A model generated the notes under the pieces. It was not told the DNA's origin. It ran no database searches and worked only from the letters and a program-made list of their open reading frames with translations. Of a stretch of DNA of 10,417 nt, positions 13 to 10,417 are shown in pieces. Position numbers and translations under genes: made by a program. Each line of letters starts with the position of its first letter. The stretch's first letter is position 1. This DNA comes from a candidate division WS6 bacterium GW2011_GWC2_36_7 (lineage in GTDB: Bacteria; Patescibacteriota; Dojkabacteria; SC72), in NCBI GenBank assembly GCA_000991805.1, contig LBSF01000016.1, forward strand, positions 1 to 10,417, in the 5' to 3' direction.

Positions 13-282
13 ATGTATAAAGGATATCTCTTACCAGAAGGGCTAGTTACTAAATATCTAAAAGCATTGAGGTCAAACGACAAAGATACAATGCATGATA
101 CCGCTTGCGAAATAGGCGTTGAGGTAGGTAAAACATGCAGGGTAATGAAATTTAGAAACAAGTCAGTTAGAGAGTTTGCTAGAAAAATAACTGAAAAAAA
201 TCCTGCTATAATAAAGGTTATACAGCATTTCATTAACAAAGAATTTGCGGATAAATTTGTAAAAGCAATCAATGAACACTAG
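13..282 (+). CDS. Small basic protein of unknown function, upstream of nth
   Basis: I do not recognise this 89-residue protein. It is lysine/arginine-rich, probably mostly helical, and has no signal peptide, membrane segment or zinc motif; its two cysteines (near residues 33 and 42) form no familiar motif. ATG at 13 is chosen as start; a TTG two codons earlier is in frame, and the frame stays open to the window edge, so the gene could begin further left. Bases 1-5 read ATACT, which with one preceding T outside the window would make a TATACT -10 box exactly 7 nt before the ATG, the same layout as the leaderless-looking start at 10337. Its last 11 nt overlap nth in another frame, which suggests co-transcription and coupled translation. 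The tight overlap supports it being a real gene. Confidence 0.6.
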   Translation: MYKGYLLPEGLVTKYLKALRSNDKDTMHDTACEIGVEVGKTCRVMKFRNKSVREFARKITEKNPAIIKVIQHFINKEFADKFVKAINEH

Positions 283-2220: not shown

Positions 2221-4716
2221 ATGGCATCAATAACTCTGGGTAAAAAACAGAACATTTTAAAACGACTTAGTAAAAACGCGAGGATATCTCTTCGTAATGC
2301 TTCACTCATAATGGAGCATTTAAAAGCGAAGAGTATCTCTCCGGAGCATATATTCATAGGGATACTTTTAAATGAAGATAGTCTTGCTACAAGGACTATT
2401 TCTTCAATGAATATTGATAGAAATGATCTGATGAAGAAGTCTTTTGGCGGAAAGATGATTGAGATAACCACAGATCCCAATTCTGCAAGAGAATTAGAAA
2501 TTTCCAACGAATCCCAATTTGTACTTAGAAAAGCATATGATATTTCTAGAAAATATTCTCATGTATATGTGGGTTCAGAACATATAATGGAGGCACTACT
2601 TCAGTTAGATACAGACTATTTCAAGGATTTAATTCACATAGGTTTGTCATACAAAGCTTTTAAAAAAGCTTTAGATAACTATGCATCATATCCTCTTGGA
2701 GTTTTGGCTCGTCCACATATGCCAAGTAACCCTATGGATGATGATTCAATTGTTGATTTTTTAGGAATAGATTTAGTTGAATTAGCCAAAGAAGGCCGTT
2801 TAGACCCAGTTTTAGGTAGGGAAGCAGAAATCAATCAGCTCATAAATATATTAAGTAGAAGGAAAAAGAATAATCCAATCATAGTTGGCGAGGCGGGTGT
2901 TGGGAAGACAGTACTCGTGGAAGGATTGGCAGAACGAATAGCTCTTGGGCATGTCCCACCTTCACTGCGAAATATGCGAATTGTATCCTTAGATATCGCA
3001 AGTATAATGGCAGGCAGCAAGATGAGAGGGGACGTTGAAGAAAAGATTATGTCCATAGTAGATGAAGTTATTTCTTCAAACAACACGATTCTCTTCATAG
3101 ATGAGATTCACAATATTGTTGCGCCAGGTATGTCTGGAGGACCGTCAGATATAGGTTCTGTACTTAAACCTGCACTTTTGCAAGAAGACTTTAGGTGTAT
3201 AGGGGCTACAACAATCGAAGAATATTCTGCGAATTTTGAATCAGATAGCGGTTTGGCAAGGAGATTTCAACCAATCCGTCTAGAAGAAGCAACTCAGGAA
3301 AATACACTCGAAATACTTCAAAAAATAAAACCAATATTAGAGAGGCATCACAATGTGAGTATAAGCAAGGAAGCCTTGAGGACTGCAGTTACTTTGTCTA
3401 ATAGATACGTAAGTGATAGGTATCTACCAGACAAGGCAATTGACCTTTTGGATGAGGCTGCTGCATCTAAAAGGTTGGCGATAGAGAATGAATATGGTGA
3501 TATATCTGAACTCATATCTCAGCTAAACAATCTCAAACAGAAAAAAGAGACATTCATATTAAAGGGGAATATGCCAAGAGCTGAGAAACTACAACATCAA
3601 GAGGTTGAACTTGAGAAGCAAATAGTGAAAAGGGAGAAGGAGTGTACAGAGAATAAGAAAAGTAAGAAAAACCAGATAGATGAGGATGATATCAGAATGG
3701 TTGTTTCAAAATGGACGGGTATCCCATTGAATACATTGGGTAGTAGGGAAAAAGTGTCACTATTGAAGCTAGAAAAAGAACTAGATACATTCGTAGTAGG
3801 ACAAAAGGATGCTTGTCGAGCAGTGGCTGCTTCCATTAAGCGAGCACGAACTGGCATATCTGATTCAGATAGGCCATGGGCATCATTCTTGTTCTTAGGT
3901 CCTACTGGTGTAGGGAAGACAGAGTTAGCGAAAGTGCTTACTAAACAGCTTTTTGGAAACGAAGACAGACTTGTACAAATCGATATGAGTGAGATGATGG
4001 AGATGCATAGTGTTTCTAAGTTGATAGGGTCTCCCCCGGGCTATGTGGGCTTCCAGCAGGGAGGTATGCTAACTGAGCAGGTACGAAGGCAACCACATTC
4101 CGTTATTCTTTTTGATGAGATAGAGAAAGCTCACCCGGATGTATTAAATGTGCTTCTCCAGATATTGGAATATGGGCATTTAACAGATGGAAGAGGTAGG
4201 AAGGTTAATTTCAAGAATACCATTATAATCCTTACCTCAAATATTGGGGCGGAGGAGATAAAGCGAGATAAGGTGCTTGGCTTTGTTGGTACGAGAGAGA
4301 AGAAACGAAGTGATATAGATATTAATAAGGCATACTCCAGTATGAAATCAGAGCTTCTGATGAAGCTAAAAGATACTTTAAGGCCGGAATTGCTTAACCG
4401 TATAGATGATATTGTCATATTTAGATCATTGACGAGAAAGGATGCAAGGAAGATTGTAGAACTATTAATTAATGATTTAAATACTCGCCTAGTTGAGGAA
4501 AATATTGTCGTGGAAATTACAGACAAGGTTGGAACATACCTAGTGAAAGAGGGCTTCAGTGATGAATATGGTGCTAGACCGCTTAGAAGAAGGGTACAGG
4601 ATTCTGTTGAGAATGTGCTTGCTGATTACATTCTCTCTCATAAGGTCGCAAAAAAGAAGATGAACGAAGTTACCATTGATATGATTAATGGTAAAATGGA
4701 TATCTTAACTAACTAG
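2221..4716 (+). CDS. clpC: AAA+ unfoldase ClpC, ATPase subunit of the Clp protease
   Basis: ClpC unfolds proteins and feeds them to the ClpP protease (clpP is not in this window). The 831-residue protein has the full order: an N-terminal domain with two Clp repeats (about 15-150); AAA domain 1 with Walker A GEAGVGKT (223-230), Walker B ILFIDE (290-295) and arginine fingers in LARRFQ; a short charged helical middle region (about 425-480) like the UVR-type linker of ClpC rather than the long ClpB coiled coil; and AAA domain 2 with Walker A GPTGVGKT (560-567), Walker B VILFDE (628-633), pore loop GYVGF and sensor-2 GARPLRR (784-790). The LGF tripeptide (686-688) matches the ClpP-docking loop, favouring ClpC over ClpB. 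Odd point: the domain-1 pore loop reads SKMRGDVEE where KYRGEFEE is usual, so the pore tyrosine is methionine. ATG 2221 is preferred over an in-frame TTG at 2215 because the -10 box ends at 2215. Confidence 0.93.
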   Translation: MASITLGKKQNILKRLSKNARISLRNASLIMEHLKAKSISPEHIFIGILLNEDSLATRTISSMNIDRNDLMKKSFGGKMIEITTDPNSARELEISNESQFVLRKAYDISRKYSHVYVGSEHIMEALLQLDTDYFKDLIHIGLSYKAFKKALDNYASYPLGVLARPHMPSNPMDDDSIVDFLGIDLVELAKEGRLDPVLGREAEINQLINILSRRKKNNPIIVGEAGVGKTVLVEGLAERIALGHVPPSLRNMRIVSLDIASIMAGSKMRGDVEEKIMSIVDEVISSNNTILFIDEIHNIVAPGMSGGPSDIGSVLKPALLQEDFRCIGATTIEEYSANFESDSGLARRFQPIRLEEATQENTLEILQKIKPILERHHNVSISKEALRTAVTLSNRYVSDRYLPDKAIDLLDEAAASKRLAIENEYGDISELISQLNNLKQKKETFILKGNMPRAEKLQHQEVELEKQIVKREKECTENKKSKKNQIDEDDIRMVVSKWTGIPLNTLGSREKVSLLKLEKELDTFVVGQKDACRAVAASIKRARTGISDSDRPWASFLFLGPTGVGKTELAKVLTKQLFGNEDRLVQIDMSEMMEMHSVSKLIGSPPGYVGFQQGGMLTEQVRRQPHSVILFDEIEKAHPDVLNVLLQILEYGHLTDGRGRKVNFKNTIIILTSNIGAEEIKRDKVLGFVGTREKKRSDIDINKAYSSMKSELLMKLKDTLRPELLNRIDDIVIFRSLTRKDARKIVELLINDLNTRLVEENIVVEITDKVGTYLVKEGFSDEYGARPLRRRVQDSVENVLADYILSHKVAKKKMNEVTIDMINGKMDILTN

Positions 4717-4723
4717 TTTCGCT

Positions 4724-6064
4724 ATGAAATATATATGTACTGCGTGTGGTACTGAATCTCTCAAATGGTCTGGAAAATGTCCTAGCTGTGGTCAATGGGG
4801 AACACTAGAAGAAAGTGAAGAACTCCCTGTAGAAAAATCCGGAACAAAGATTGGTACAGCAGCAAAATATGAATCAATATTTCAAGATGAGAGCAAAGCA
4901 TTTAGCTCGGATACTCGCATTTCAACGGGGTATACAGAGGTTGATAGGGTACTAGGTACAGGTTTAATACCCGGAGAAGTGGTTTTAATTAGTGGTGAAC
5001 CAGGTATCGGCAAATCTACGTTACTTATGCAAGTGGTTTTGAAGTTTTCAGAAAAAAAAATATTGTATGTTTGTGGAGAGGAATCTCCAGGGCAGTTGAA
5101 CTCTAGGCTGGTCAGGCTTGCCAATAACAAGTCTTCTAGTAAAATAGGGCAGAATTTCATGGTAACAGAGGATATTTGTGCAGAAAATATTGTAGCTTTG
5201 ATCGAAAAAGAGAATTTTGATCTTATAGTTGTCGACTCGATACAGAGTATCTCTTCAATGCAATCCAGAAGTTACCCAGGAAGTATAAGTCAGGTAAGGA
5301 TTTGTGGGGCTATGCTAACTCATGTGGCAAAAATTAAACGAATCCCTATGTTCATAGTTGGTCAGATAAACAAAGGCGGAGATATAGCTGGTCCCAAGGT
5401 ATTAGAACATATCGTTGACTGTGTATTGTACCTAGAGGGGGATCAATTTAACCAATATCGTATATTGAGAGGAATGAAGAATAGATTTGGATCGACTAAT
5501 GAAATAGGGGTGTTTGAAATGACGGGTAGTGGATTGCAAGAGGTCGGAAACCCATCGTTAGTATTTCTTGAGAACGATACTAAGTCGTCGGGTAGTGCTA
5601 TAGGTGCTGTGTTACAAGGCTCTAGAGTTGTGTTTGTAGAAGTGCAATCGCTTGTTGTAGAGCGCGAAAGCACTGGTGGACCAATGATGCGTGTTGCGAA
5701 TGGTATCAAAAAGCCAAGATTAGATATGCTTTGTGCAGTTATGTCTCGTAAGGGTGGAGTATTTTTAGGAGATAAGGATGTGTTTGTAAATATAGTGGGA
5801 GGGCTGAATATTAATGATCCGTGTATTGATTTGGCGATATGCGCAGCGATTAAGTCTTCTGCAAAGGATAAAGTCCTAGATAAAGAGAGCGTGTATGTAG
5901 GAGAAGTAGGTTTGACAGGAGAGGTAAGAGGTTCTTGGGGAGTTAGCGCAATCATAGACGAGGCCCAAAGAGTAGGCTACAAAAGTGCAATCATTGGCAA
6001 ATCCAAGCTTGGAAAGGCTCAGGATATCGCAGTGAAAAAGATTTCTCAGATTACTAGTATCTAG
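4724..6064 (+). CDS. radA: DNA repair protein RadA/Sms, branch-migration ATPase
   Basis: RadA is a RecA-like hexameric ATPase that helps process recombination intermediates during repair. The 446 residues match the family's usual length and order: a four-cysteine zinc finger (C5, C8, C19, C22); Walker A GEPGIGKST (91-99); a RecA core with LIVVDSIQ (167-174); the RadA-specific KNRFG motif (252-256); and a C-terminal Lon-protease-like domain (about 270-446) with DVFVNIVGG (352-360). The gene begins 7 nt after the clpC stop with no clear Shine-Dalgarno, so it is most likely expressed from the clpC promoter by coupled translation. The clpC-radA adjacency is also seen in Firmicutes. Nothing essential is missing. 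Confidence 0.95.
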   Translation: MKYICTACGTESLKWSGKCPSCGQWGTLEESEELPVEKSGTKIGTAAKYESIFQDESKAFSSDTRISTGYTEVDRVLGTGLIPGEVVLISGEPGIGKSTLLMQVVLKFSEKKILYVCGEESPGQLNSRLVRLANNKSSSKIGQNFMVTEDICAENIVALIEKENFDLIVVDSIQSISSMQSRSYPGSISQVRICGAMLTHVAKIKRIPMFIVGQINKGGDIAGPKVLEHIVDCVLYLEGDQFNQYRILRGMKNRFGSTNEIGVFEMTGSGLQEVGNPSLVFLENDTKSSGSAIGAVLQGSRVVFVEVQSLVVERESTGGPMMRVANGIKKPRLDMLCAVMSRKGGVFLGDKDVFVNIVGGLNINDPCIDLAICAAIKSSAKDKVLDKESVYVGEVGLTGEVRGSWGVSAIIDEAQRVGYKSAIIGKSKLGKAQDIAVKKISQITSI

Positions 6065-6244
6065 GAAGGGTAGCGACTTGCTTTATCAGTGCTTGCCCAA
6101 GTCTATATCCACAAAAGGCGTAACATTAAAGAGGTAGGATGTCGCCACGTAACATACAAAAGTACAGTTGGAGAAATATGCCATTATGGGGCGACTTCTG
6201 CGAAACAATGGAGGACTTAGTGTGTGTGGATACTATATATAGGG
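6065..6244 (+). other. Non-coding stretch after radA with alternative short helices
   Basis: These 180 nt sit between the radA stop and the first promoter of the radA-rho interval. No clear terminator with a T-run follows radA. Two mutually exclusive pairings of one segment are visible: ATGTCGCC (6139-6146) can pair with GGCG plus ACAT (6117-6120 and 6123-6126, with a two-base bulge), or its GTCGCC part (6141-6146) can pair with GGCGAC (6190-6195). GACTTG (near 6075) and CAAGTC (near 6098) can also pair. No function is assigned. Confidence 0.3.
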
Positions 6245-6579
6245 TTGACAATTATACCACTCGAGGCGTATACTATACTGTTCTTTCAGAAGACTGTGGA
6301 TATCTTAGGTTTTTCCCTTTGTCTGGGGTGTCACGAGCACATCTGGGCAACAGGATAAGCCTAAGAAACCATAATCAACTGATATTAAGAAAAGAAGGGA
6401 TAAATATATTTATATATGTTATCCGATATTTTTTTCTTAACTTATTAAGAGAAAGAAACCGGGGTCGGTTGGGGCAGTACCGATCCCTTCTTTTTAATTC
6501 CCTTTTGATCTGTATATTTGACATATTTTTTTTATTTCAATATACTTTTGGAGTCAATAGGGCGTATGCCCAATATTAA
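6139..6579 (+). CDS. Doubtful open reading frame across the radA-rho interval
   Basis: An open frame of 146 codons starts at an ATG with GAGG 4 nt upstream (6131-6134) and ends 14 nt inside rho. Its first 70 residues look moderately protein-like, but the second half is dominated by Phe, Ile, Leu and Arg from A/T-rich runs. The frame runs through a consensus promoter (6245-6274), a strong intrinsic terminator (6461-6495) and the rho promoter (6518-6546), which is hard to reconcile with a gene. I recognise no family. It is most likely chance, or the remnant of a shorter gene at its 5' end. Confidence 0.2.
   Translation: MSPRNIQKYSWRNMPLWGDFCETMEDLVCVDTIYRVDNYTTRGVYYTVLSEDCGYLRFFPLSGVSRAHLGNRISLRNHNQLILRKEGINIFIYVIRYFFLNLLRERNRGRLGQYRSLLFNSLLICIFDIFFLFQYTFGVNRAYAQY
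6245..6279 (+). promoter_or_regulatory. Consensus sigma-70-type promoter for the radA-rho interval RNA
   Basis: TTGACA (6245-6250) is separated by 18 nt from TATACT (6269-6274); a second overlapping TATACT lies at 6274-6279. Transcription would begin around 6281-6286. No convincing gene starts just downstream, so the product is probably an RNA. Confidence 0.7.
6390..6494 (+). promoter_or_regulatory. Possible antiterminator pairing upstream of rho
   Basis: AAAAGAAGGGAT (6390-6401) is exactly complementary to ATCCCTTCTTTT (6483-6494). The second segment contains the 3' arm of the terminator stem and most of its T-run, while the first overlaps the 5' arm of the GGATAA/TTATCC hairpin. The two folds exclude each other, as in attenuators. 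The intervening distance is about 80 nt, and no ligand or leader peptide is evident. Confidence 0.35.
6461..6495 (+). terminator. Intrinsic terminator upstream of the rho promoter
   Basis: GGGGTCGGT (6461-6469) pairs over 9 bp (one G-U) with ACCGATCCC (6479-6487) around a 9-nt loop, followed directly by TTCTTTTT (6488-6495). It would end transcripts from the 6245 promoter and read-through from clpC-radA before the rho promoter. Confidence 0.8.
6518..6546 (+). promoter_or_regulatory. Consensus promoter for rho
   Basis: TTGACA (6518-6523), 17 nt spacer, TATACT (6541-6546). Predicted start near 6553, giving a leader of only about 13 nt before the ATG at 6566. The long T-run in the spacer could add curvature. 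Confidence 0.8.
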
Positions 6580-7904: not shown

Positions 7905-9119
7905 TTGGAAGATATTGGGTCGAATCAAAATAAAAATGTTGCAGGACTGAGCTTCAAGGATCTATCAAAAGAAGAGAAAGATTCTTTTAATGCTACCTCT
8001 GGAGAATTTCTTTTTGTTAATGAAGAGATAGGGGAAAAGAATTCCTTAATGGACGCTAGGGGAAAATTCATACAATTCATAAATACTAAAAAGCAGAGGA
8101 AAGATGTATTTGCATTTGTAATAGAGCTTTTAAGCTATGTCTATACTCGTTTTCGTGTTGCCCTAATACTCCTCTCAGTACTATTCGATATCTTTAGTGA
8201 TTTCATAAATTTCTTTAAAGATAAGATTGTTAAAAGGATGTTCTGGGGCAGGGGAACTTTCCTCAAATCCGCACTACAAGTCACACTATCATTCATGGTA
8301 TTCATATTAATAATCTCCTATGTATATAGAAGGCCCGTAGTCATAGAAGCAAGCGCAGATACATTAGCTAGTGTTGGAGTGCTTGAAACAGACACCATAG
8401 TTGCTACGGCATCATTAAATACACTCGTACCTAAGGATAGGGGTAGAACATCAACTATAGATTATATTGTAAAAAGGGGTGATACCATTAGTTCCATTGC
8501 AGCTGCAAACAACGTAAGTACACAAACTGTTCTATGGGCAAACGATATGTCAGCAAACGACTATCTAAAGCTAGGGCAAACATTGGCTATACCTCCTCAA
8601 GATGGTGTAATCGTCAAGGTTGTAAAAGGTGATACCGTTGAATCTTTAGCGAAGAAATATTCAGCGAATGCGGCTGACATCGTTGATGCTGCATGGTTAG
8701 AAGCGCCATATAAACTTACTACCGGTGTTGAGATATTTATACCTAATGGTGAAATGCCAACAGTAATTGCAAAGAGAACTACCACAAGCACACCTTCTTC
8801 ATATCAACAGTCTTCAATTAAATACAGTGGTGGTGTAGCAGACCCTAATGTCGGAAGATTCTTAGGATGGCCAGTAGGTGGGCCAAGTGCAATTTCAAGA
8901 GGTTTCTTCTCTGGTCACTATGGTATCGACTTCTATCCAACAGGTGGTAGTAGGCCAAGTGTTGTATCTGCTTGTGCTGGTACTGTAATAAGTGCAGGGT
9001 GGGGCTATTGGGGTACAAACTATGGGGGCTACGGCTATTATACTCATGTCGATTGTGGTAATACATGGACAAACTGTATGTATCTGCTGGTCAACACGTT
9101 GGTAAAGGACAGGCACTAG
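7905..9119 (+). CDS. Membrane-anchored LysM/M23 peptidoglycan peptidase, frameshifted near the end
   Basis: The frame encodes 404 residues: a charged cytoplasmic region (1-70); two hydrophobic segments (about 83-104 and 118-140, the second a clear membrane anchor); two LysM peptidoglycan-binding repeats (186-230 and 236-280, each with a GDT motif); a Ser/Thr linker (290-310); and the start of an M23 metallopeptidase domain with zinc-ligand motif HxxxD (H338, D342). M23 enzymes cut peptide cross-links in the cell wall. After THVDCGNTWT (380-389) the frame leaves the family pattern and stops. The rest of the domain, including HTH, follows in another frame up to 9226. The expected YAHLS-type segment with a catalytic histidine is absent from both frames. 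TTG 7905 is the only usable start after an in-frame stop at 7878, and no ribosome binding site is evident. As it stands the product should be inactive. Confidence 0.8.
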   Translation: MEDIGSNQNKNVAGLSFKDLSKEEKDSFNATSGEFLFVNEEIGEKNSLMDARGKFIQFINTKKQRKDVFAFVIELLSYVYTRFRVALILLSVLFDIFSDFINFFKDKIVKRMFWGRGTFLKSALQVTLSFMVFILIISYVYRRPVVIEASADTLASVGVLETDTIVATASLNTLVPKDRGRTSTIDYIVKRGDTISSIAAANNVSTQTVLWANDMSANDYLKLGQTLAIPPQDGVIVKVVKGDTVESLAKKYSANAADIVDAAWLEAPYKLTTGVEIFIPNGEMPTVIAKRTTTSTPSSYQQSSIKYSGGVADPNVGRFLGWPVGGPSAISRGFFSGHYGIDFYPTGGSRPSVVSACAGTVISAGWGYWGTNYGGYGYYTHVDCGNTWTNCMYLLVNTLVKDRH

Positions 9120-9255: not shown

Positions 9256-9329
9256 GGGCTCATAGTTCAGTTTGGTAGAATATCTCATTCGCATTGAGAA
9301 GATCGCCGGTTCGATTCCGGCTGAGTCCA
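9256..9329 (+). tRNA. tRNA-Ala (anticodon CGC), no encoded CCA
   Basis: A full cloverleaf can be drawn: acceptor GGGCTCA/TGAGTCC with the G3-U70 wobble pair that marks alanine tRNAs; D stem GTTC/GAAT; anticodon stem TCTCA/TGAGA with loop TTCGCAT, anticodon CGC at 9290-9292; and T stem GCCGG/CCGGC with loop TTCGATT. It reads GCG codons. After the discriminator A at 9329 the sequence is GAAG, so CCA must be added by an enzyme. Confidence 0.95.
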
Positions 9330-9341
9330 GAAGTTTGTTGT

Positions 9342-9418
9342 GGGCCTGTGGCTCAGCTGGTTAGAGCACATCGCTGGCAGTGATGGGGTCAGGGGTTCGA
9401 ATCCCCTCAGGTCCACCA
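9342..9418 (+). tRNA. tRNA-Ala (anticodon GGC), CCA encoded
   Basis: Cloverleaf: acceptor GGGCCTG/CAGGTCC with G3-U70; D stem GCTC/GAGC; anticodon stem CATCG/TGATG with loop CTGGCAG, anticodon GGC at 9376-9378; T stem AGGGG/CCCCT with loop TTCGAAT; CCA encoded at 9416-9418. It reads GCC and GCU codons. It lies 12 nt after the first tRNA and is presumably processed from the same transcript. Confidence 0.96.
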
Positions 9419-9488: not shown

Positions 9489-10337
9489 TCAGATTAGTTT
9501 GGACGGCTTCACATCTTGTGGTTCAACCTCTGTTACTTCTATTAGTTTTTGATTAGTCGAATCTTTAATCAAAGTTTTTCCTTTGTATATTTTGTGAATA
9601 CAATCTGAGAAGCTTATGTTAATTTTCATCATTGAAAGTGGATCTCTTGCTTTCCTTCGATACGTTGTATAGGCTCCTATGTCTGCTAACTCTAGCCCGG
9701 TATGAATATAATCTTTGTTAGCTATACTTAAACTATTTATTCTCGACTTAACACATTCTGAGTATATATTTATCTTTCCTCCTTTAAGTCTTGGTTTTCT
9801 AGCATCATCAAAGTAACTGACAAAAAATTGATCACTAAATTGGCGAGATTCTATAACGATTTCGCCTGTAGTCTTCTTGCTTGCTAAAAAACAGGAGAAA
9901 TCGATAAGCGCATTTCTTGAAACTAGCTCATAGGGGAGATCATAGTTTATTGTTGTCGACTTTTTTCCACCATATGGTTTATACCCAATTTTATTTCTTA
10001 GTTTATCCTTGTCGATATAATATATAGCAGATTGAAAGGGTACTATTTTGAGAGTATCCTCTATACGTGTCAGAAAAGAATTCCTTCTATCTTGAGGAAC
10101 CATTAGTTTTCTGTACTTTTTATATGTTCTCTCAAACAAATCAGTGCAATGTATCCCTTTGCACTCATTTCTGAAATATTCCCTTTTTAGTAATTGAAAG
10201 TAACCTTGAATAATAGGTATATCGCTATTCTTGATAATTACACAAGAGAGAATAAACACTTTTCCTCTGTGATTCAGTGAGGCTACGCCAGATTCGTCGA
10301 TGAATAGGGTGTATAAATTGTTATTGATCTTTTCCAT
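9489..10337 (-). CDS. DUF3800 domain protein
   Basis: The 282-residue protein has the landmarks of the DUF3800 family: FIDESG near the N-terminus (12-17, acidic pair D14/E15), an HCTDLF segment (63-68), a central VIESR strand (161-165) and ELADIGAY near the C-terminus (216-223, D219). The spaced acidic residues suggest an RNase H-like nuclease fold, but the biochemical role of the family is not established. Members are common in accessory and mobile regions. ATG 10337 is chosen over the in-frame ATG at 10376 because a TATAAT box lies between them, 7 nt before 10337, and FIDESG then falls at its usual place. It is the only minus-strand gene here, the only one ending in TGA, and it sits directly downstream of tRNA genes, all of which hint at acquisition. 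Confidence 0.8.
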   Translation of the reverse strand: MEKINNNLYTLFIDESGVASLNHRGKVFILSCVIIKNSDIPIIQGYFQLLKREYFRNECKGIHCTDLFERTYKKYRKLMVPQDRRNSFLTRIEDTLKIVPFQSAIYYIDKDKLRNKIGYKPYGGKKSTTINYDLPYELVSRNALIDFSCFLASKKTTGEIVIESRQFSDQFFVSYFDDARKPRLKGGKINIYSECVKSRINSLSIANKDYIHTGLELADIGAYTTYRRKARDPLSMMKINISFSDCIHKIYKGKTLIKDSTNQKLIEVTEVEPQDVKPSKLI

Positions 10338-10344
10338 ATACCAA

Positions 10345-10350
10345 ATTATA
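10345..10350 (-). promoter_or_regulatory. -10 box giving a leaderless DUF3800 transcript
   Basis: On the minus strand TATAAT is followed by 7 nt and then the ATG at 10337, so the predicted transcription start is the A of the start codon. No strong -35 is visible. This supports the shorter protein. Confidence 0.5.
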
Positions 10351-10417
10351 CATCTTTGTTTTTCTACCAATACCATAGTCGCGCTTTGGATAATGAATCT
10401 GTCAGAAAGAGATTGTA

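Follow-up and report, generated by a model that had tools for sequence, protein, structure and literature searches.

Between radA and rho in the window, i.e., the whole 10,417-nucleotide stretch of DNA that was analysed, lies what is, judged by its sequence, a new family of standalone small RNA, the gene of which is kept across nearly the whole class Dojkabacteria. It combines its own promoter, a conserved structure and its own terminator with the lack of a reading frame, as a standalone small RNA gene does, and the case for it is made up of the promoter, the fold and its covariation, class-wide retention, occurrence away from rho, and a phage-like copy. The initial annotation had proposed an undescribed structured RNA at this place, and the compensatory changes, the class-wide conservation, the lack of an Rfam 15 match at gathering score in the window and 20 homologous loci, and the lack of a conserved frame all uphold that proposal. 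The RNA is tentatively read as DnaA-linked and trans-acting, a standalone small structured molecule that would dock or titrate a protein and that is made from its own sigma-70 promoter up to an intrinsic terminator; this reading, the mechanism of which is putative, comes near to an even call without reaching it.

The feature sits between radA, so called after the initial annotation and its domains, and rho, in the following order (positions are those of the window).

Upstream side, in window order: endonuclease III-like gene, S1-domain gene, clpC, and radA, which ends at 6064
6238-6244 (+): TATAGGG element, adjoining the -35 box on its 5' side
6245-6274 (+): sigma-70-type promoter TTGACA-18-TATACT, 11 of 12 matches
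6280-6288 (+): predicted RNA 5' end with the conserved motif GTTCTTTCA (GWTCWTTAA), a putative start site
6296-6373 (+): H1, a hairpin and the core module, matched by model R1
6323-6326 (+): 5' CUGG of a tandem U-G/G-U wobble motif, partner of 6343-6346
6343-6346 (+): 3' CUGG of the same motif, partner of 6323-6326
6398-6424 (+): small A/U-rich hairpin between H1 and H2, from a single-sequence fold
6429-6456 (+): H2, a hairpin of variable sequence adjoining H3, from a single-sequence fold
6461-6487 (+): H3, the near-invariant hairpin GGGGTCGGT-TGGGGCAGT-ACCGATCCC
6470-6478 (+): loop of H3, with GGGCAGU retained on differing stems
6488-6495 (+): T-rich tract of the intrinsic terminator
6518-6546 (+): separate rho promoter TTGACA-17-TATACT
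After the feature, in window order: rho, a LysM/M23 gene (7905-9119), two neighbouring tRNA genes (9256-9415, Rfam 15 at gathering score), and a DUF3800 protein gene (9489-10376, -)

The LysM/M23 gene, which covers the M23 profile only at 2-58 of 96, ends early and possibly carries a frameshift or is truncated. The modular build of the RNA, its fixed GGGCAGU loop, the DnaA-box-like sites and the phage copies go beyond what the initial annotation had described.

The predicted transcript extends from ~6280 to 6495 and would be ~215 nt long, both ends being predictions. Region 6281-6496 folds at -77.6 kcal/mol with a z of -6.73, which none of 200 shuffles equals, and H1 alone has a z of -5.53. 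Among the 84 loci, 37 diverse ones were tested with 60 shuffles each, and the z values of all 37 lie between -4.04 and -13.4. The strong intrinsic terminator is present as claimed, with a 9-bp stem, GGGGTCGGT/ACCGATCCC, at 6461-6487 and Ts continuing to 6495. The claimed pairing of the 5' end with 6451-6457 is not supported, being missing from the minimum-energy and centroid folds, in which 6451-6456 is instead part of a hairpin formed locally. The evidence for H2 comes from folds of single sequences, since RNAalifold on the H2+H3 alignment returned H3 alone and no consensus fold for H2; H2-like hairpins also occur in the single-sequence folds of relatives.

The two promoters named by the initial annotation, one for the RNA and one for rho, are both found at their expected places. 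A promoter scan alone proves nothing, since the 4 promoter-like sites found compare with 3.4 expected in shuffles and are thus at chance level. The promoter of the feature is supported by conservation, since 78/84 loci have TTGAC[ACT]-16..19-TANNNT-like sites ahead of H1, a count made without a shuffled control; slightly looser hexamers give promoter-like sites upstream in 82 loci. Moreover, a TATAGG-like element starts 6-8 nt ahead of the -35 box in 63/82 loci compared with 2.9% of control windows, the variants counted having been picked after inspection of the upstream promoter sites, and a similar element stands just ahead of the -10 box in 36 of 82 loci. A 5' end resembling GWTCWTTAA with at most two mismatches is present in 58/82 loci, compared with 9.6% of control windows.

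H1 forms a long hairpin whose invariant core consists of UCC, a 2x2 internal loop, a 4-bp helix, and CUGG opposite CUGG. R1 finds it in the window with an E of 7.6e-19, the window sequence being part of the training set of that model. The tandem wobble is kept as U-G in 33/33 and as G-U in 32/33 sequences of alignment A2, and as U-G in 84/93 and G-U in 87/93 rows of alignment A4. The conserved helix is predicted to have only 1x1 and 2x2 internal loops and no open bubble, and no conserved GNRA apical loop is seen in the H1 alignment. Covariation among relatives, a check that the initial annotation had suggested, comes out clearly on the side of structure. In a set of 95 matches (93 distinct rows, with 4 low-scoring antisense matches retained), 96.4% of the H1 cells are paired compared with 69.9% after shuffling, and 503 cells are double-sided compared with 145.5, in an alignment that is fitted to the structure and therefore leans towards it. 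Double-sided change affects 16 pairs compared with 13.8 in shuffles, a figure matched by 5/500 of them. A MAFFT alignment of 33 sequences, which is not fitted to the structure, likewise has double-sided changes in 16/22 H1 pairs. Shifting the register by one column lowers the H1 pairing to 53% and 52%. In 15/85 genomes the locus holds a second copy of H1, set apart from the first by a run of N in G025, and inspection by eye showed a third in L149.

A plain terminator with chance folding, or a hidden protein gene, was considered as the source of the signal and is ruled out by the H1 covariation and by a frame analysis of 28 loci, so that its probability is practically negligible. An open frame of 146 aa does span 6139-6579 across the feature, and the frame of the window is open over 210 nt in 9/28 family loci, above the 0 and 2 of the other sense frames; however, it has stops in 19/28 family loci. 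Some frame is open through the 215-nt stretch in 24/84 loci, on both strands and in several frames. Summed column divergence at codon positions 1, 2 and 3 of the window's frame is 3.46, 2.61 and 3.82 (75 nt round the H1 core, 28 family loci), without a clear excess at the third position. In addition, the H1-to-H3 lengths are spread modulo 3 (19, 21 and 23 of 63), and the open frame of the feature has no Pfam match. Two of the refuting conditions named by the initial annotation, a lack of covariation and a conserved protein frame, do not hold.

H3, written as RNA, is GGGGUCGGU-UGGGGCAGU-ACCGAUCCC, with 23 invariant columns in 33 sequences. No double-sided change in H3 occurs among the 33 sequences of alignment A1, and the compensatory changes come from further loci, namely the stem variant GGGAUCGAU/AUCGAUCCC in L174-L176 and the compensated stem GGUUGGU/ACCAAUC in a second H3 of L212. 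The GGGCAGU loop is also carried by an unrelated stem in L187 and by an extra hairpin in L157. The H3 model R2 matches 66/81 class genomes; the 15 without a match are nine f14 genomes, G046, G054, G068, G017, G019 and G061. One f14 genome, G074, has neither an R2 nor any other RNA match, and H3 is missing in eight f14 genomes that carry H1. H3 was not found in the loci of another class either.

The conservation of a paired motif in H1, the H1 repeats and the loop kept on different stems together look like the pattern expected of binding sites. The RNA may thus serve as a platform that docks or titrates a protein; H1 (its CUGG/CUGG wobble helix and 2x2 internal loop, with one to three copies in tandem) would be the main protein site and the H3 GGGCAGU loop, found in Dojkabacteria, a candidate second one. 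An unlikely alternative, which still deserves a place, is a base-pairing (antisense) small RNA that uses the GGGCAGU loop and the 5' GWUCWUUAA end as seeds for mRNAs or another RNA. A loop retained on changing stems is also seed-like, the 5' motif recurs in the 58/82 loci given above, and the predicted transcript ends in a T-rich terminator. However, H1 as the most widespread module is conserved within helices, f14 and the other class retain H1 but not H3, and A+T-rich genomes would be expected to hold few copies of the complement ACUGCCC. Protein binding is preferred over base pairing because the commonest module is conserved inside a helix, has an unusual wobble and varies in copy number. 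The genome gave no sign of a shared regulon, since TATAGGGTTGACA, with one mismatch allowed, occurs once in the genome of the window, at the feature, while the reversed-pattern control gave 7.

The proposed link to DnaA comes from box-like sites beside the promoter, two of which are in the window.

6225-6233 (-): DnaA-box-like site GTATCCACA, one mismatch to TTATCCACA, ~70 bp upstream of H1
6295-6303 (-): second DnaA-box-like site ATATCCACA, one mismatch, in the transcribed part at the H1 base

Within the window alone, the 5 one-mismatch sites are not significant compared with 3.5 expected. The family of the window has one-mismatch sites only, at -71 to -73 of H1 in 12/28 loci and at -1 of H1 in 23/28 loci; conservation of the site at the H1 base could equally fit a constraint on the RNA. 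Over all loci, the 18.2 kb near H1 (-200 to +20) hold 28 exact copies of TTATCCACA, versus 2 in the other 347 kb of these loci. Counted by locus, it is present in 18/84 versus 1/1378 control windows when exact, and in 52/84 loci versus 67/1378 control windows with one mismatch, the loci being related and their counts not independent events. Scrambled 9-mers, 200 in all, average 0.3 occurrences near H1, and the highest count, 11, was reached by one of them. The positions differ by family: f9 and f17 have two boxes ~30 bp apart upstream, part of f1 has boxes flanking the promoter, f2 has them at the start of H1, and two f29 loci have them between promoter and H1. No box is present within the stretch searched in the f6, f7, f8, f10, f15 and f16 loci counted and in 7/8 f14 loci; TTATCCACA was seen by eye in G054 and G068, which belong to f6 and stand outside the locus count. 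These sites suggest that DnaA may bind beside the promoter, which would couple the replication state to expression of the RNA.

The DNA of 6236-6500 matches 44/58 genomes, its own included, up to class level, and the 3' hairpin does so most widely. Covariance model R1, for H1, matches 77/85 Dojkabacteria genomes, again with the own genome included. After an R1 miss, H1 was found by local search in G041 and G069; in G068, R3 finds two diverged H1 copies ahead of rho (E 1.8e-4 and 0.025), and G054 has a diverged form that was seen by eye only and is not reached by R3 at E 0.05. In G019, which is without an RNA match, the contig ends 90 bp from rho, and G017, G061 and G074 have neither an RNA match nor a rho match, so that in these four genomes locus loss and assembly gaps look the same. 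A scan of 84,980 genomes with an H3 pattern gives 60 stretches, titled Dojkabacteria/WS6 (36), Patescibacteria (7), 'bacterium' (16) and Microgenomates (1); the single Microgenomates title is probably a mislabel, and the pattern is usable as a tag for Dojkabacteria. In draws from the phylum, R1 matches 36/380 and R3 33/379 genomes, with ~11-12 candidates scored per genome, so that weak matches may be lost; R3 missed G041, G047 and G053, all found by other searches. The matches outside the class are G096, G148, G185 (f29), G197 and G133 (f45). Shorter relatives with promoter and H1 and no H3 are seen in another class of the phylum (L158-L161, L252), of which L158-L160 have an ordinary terminator, by eye, and adjoin tRNA genes.

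In 69/84 loci, i.e., 69/78 main Dojkabacteria loci, rho lies downstream on the same strand, and clpC and/or radA lie upstream of the feature in most loci. The rho linkage has nine exceptions: a locus at a contig end, two loci of f12 and six of f9, where rho is ~6 kb off on the opposite strand in five loci and on another contig in the sixth. No rho was found beside the RNA in two f12 genomes or in four loci of the other class, where 3/4 loci scanned adjoin tRNA genes. The RNA is not always upstream of rho, which is not adjacent in the 6 f9, 2 f12 and 4 other-class loci. A cis role, with the RNA acting as a leader or attenuator of rho, would likewise be compatible with the linkage seen in most genomes, and read-through into rho may occur in f14, where H3 is lacking. 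This cis reading is very improbable, the exceptions having refuted it for the most part: rho has a promoter of its own after the RNA in the window, the RNA is retained while rho is elsewhere in the six f9 loci and the two f12 genomes, rho is not adjacent in the other class, and a further copy lies among phage genes. Action in trans is most likely, given that the RNA is found away from rho in f9, f12, the other class and the phage-like contig.

That contig, L256 (43 kb), has H1 (E 9.3e-8) and H3 (1.3e-12) at 2290-2458 (-), between a replication-initiation gene and RecT/exonuclease genes, with a promoter seen by eye. A second contig, L255 (45 kb), has H3 (1e-16) at 10801-10844 (+) with a hairpin ahead of it, beside a replication gene and a RecE-like exonuclease gene; it gave no H1 match of note, the best being 0.35 elsewhere on the contig. 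L256 and L255 are presumably phages of Dojkabacteria, going by the RNA and the neighbouring genes. Two more viral stretches from a looser H3 pattern, L257 and L258, were judged chance hits, with dense long open frames and without an H1 match. The f9 stem variant was not found in the viral scan, nor did the window region or the L256 copy match annotated phage records.

The genomes of Patescibacteria are reduced, and little work has been done on their regulation. A wider proposal, which is possible and somewhat unlikely, is that this is a core RNA of Dojkabacteria, governed by DnaA and coupling replication to expression through a protein that reads H1 and GGGCAGU, that phages bring a version of their own with which they exploit or disarm this machinery, and that an older, simpler form (promoter, H1 and terminator) persists in another class of Patescibacteria. 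If so, the retention of this core RNA would be comparable to that of 6S RNA or tmRNA elsewhere. The RNA is a candidate central regulator in cells with few described ones, because of its class-wide retention, its near-frozen terminal hairpin, the DnaA-box-like sites at its promoter and the phage-like copy. It is also a defined molecule for fishing out a partner protein, and an unusual partner, if that is what is found, could set the RNA further apart from the known kinds.

Among known families, Rfam 15 gives no match at gathering score for the feature or for 20 homologous loci, the scans covering the window and a subset of loci; the window yields two tRNAs only. This agrees with the earlier remark that no known family was recognised. 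At loose thresholds, the feature has sub-gathering matches to microRNA, plastid, snoRNA, SpF39 and SIB families, the last two being bacterial and on the other strand. The comparison with 6S RNA, which the initial annotation had made by size, does not carry over to the sequence or the fold, as RF00013 matches 0/38 genomes (with 5/14 controls detected, 4 over the cut-off) and the fold has no large open bubble. The feature is like 6S RNA in its size range and in being near-universal within its clade, and the same RF00013 counts may mean that the 6S role is vacant here; it differs from 6S RNA in having no Rfam match and no large internal bubble. A 6S-like decoy of RNA polymerase is thus improbable, the internal loops of H1 being small only and the loci scanned lacking an RF00013 match.

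Bacterial SRP RNA (RF00169) resembles the feature as a compact hairpin RNA conserved across a group. With stricter filters, RF00169 matches 0/81 class genomes and 0/192 phylum genomes, while 11/14 controls are detected, 9 of them over the cut-off, which would leave room for a replacement of SRP RNA. Such a replacement is nevertheless highly improbable. The Ffh M domain PF02978 was found in 0/12 genomes compared with 14/14 controls, so that no known protein user is at hand and the reason to seek an SRP RNA is removed; moreover, the feature has no RF00169 match and H1 no conserved GNRA apical loop. Judged from the RF00169 and PF02978 searches, Patescibacteria may lack SRP or have a strongly diverged one. 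No statement of such an absence was found in the portions available of the literature on these bacteria, including PMC8321541, PMC7203096, PMC8155191 and PMC10768705.

The docking or titrating reading also invites comparison with other standalone RNAs. Small RNAs of the CsrB/RsmY type are standalone, titrate a protein and have repeated GGA loops in hairpins. The feature is similar in being a standalone RNA with a repeated hairpin module (H1, 1 to 3 copies), and this repetition suggests protein titration, protein binding itself being putative. In contrast to the CsrB/RsmY type, its conserved motif is a paired CUGG/CUGG wobble helix; repeated GGA loops are seen in neither the H1 nor the H3 alignments, and the GGA of H1 is paired. 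The nearest concept is CcnA of Caulobacter, by the part of its description that was available (PMC8959179). CcnA is a 182-nt cell-cycle ncRNA in the replication origin region with DnaA boxes, acts on ctrA and gcrA, and is presumably activated by CtrA. Compared by description only, the two are alike as small ncRNAs of similar length with a tie to replication control and DnaA boxes nearby, and CcnA differs in its place in the origin, its presumed activation by CtrA and its action on ctrA and gcrA. Among the titles and opening lines of abstracts listed as matches in the Patescibacteria, CPR, Saccharibacteria and Dojkabacteria literature, no paper describes this RNA. A tmRNA match beside L157 has 46.4 bits, just under the cut-off of 47, and is broken off at the end of the stretch, which suggests that tmRNA is a gene separate from the feature.

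In two f7 genomes, a second H1 lies upstream of a gene at another place (L217, 2408-2484; L218, 2682-2789, -), preceded by a palindrome that, by eye, overlaps a promoter. In L217, the gene that follows encodes a CsoR-type metal-sensing repressor (PF02583, 1.4e-17; the Pfam assignment was made in L217 alone), after which comes a DsbD/HMA protein.
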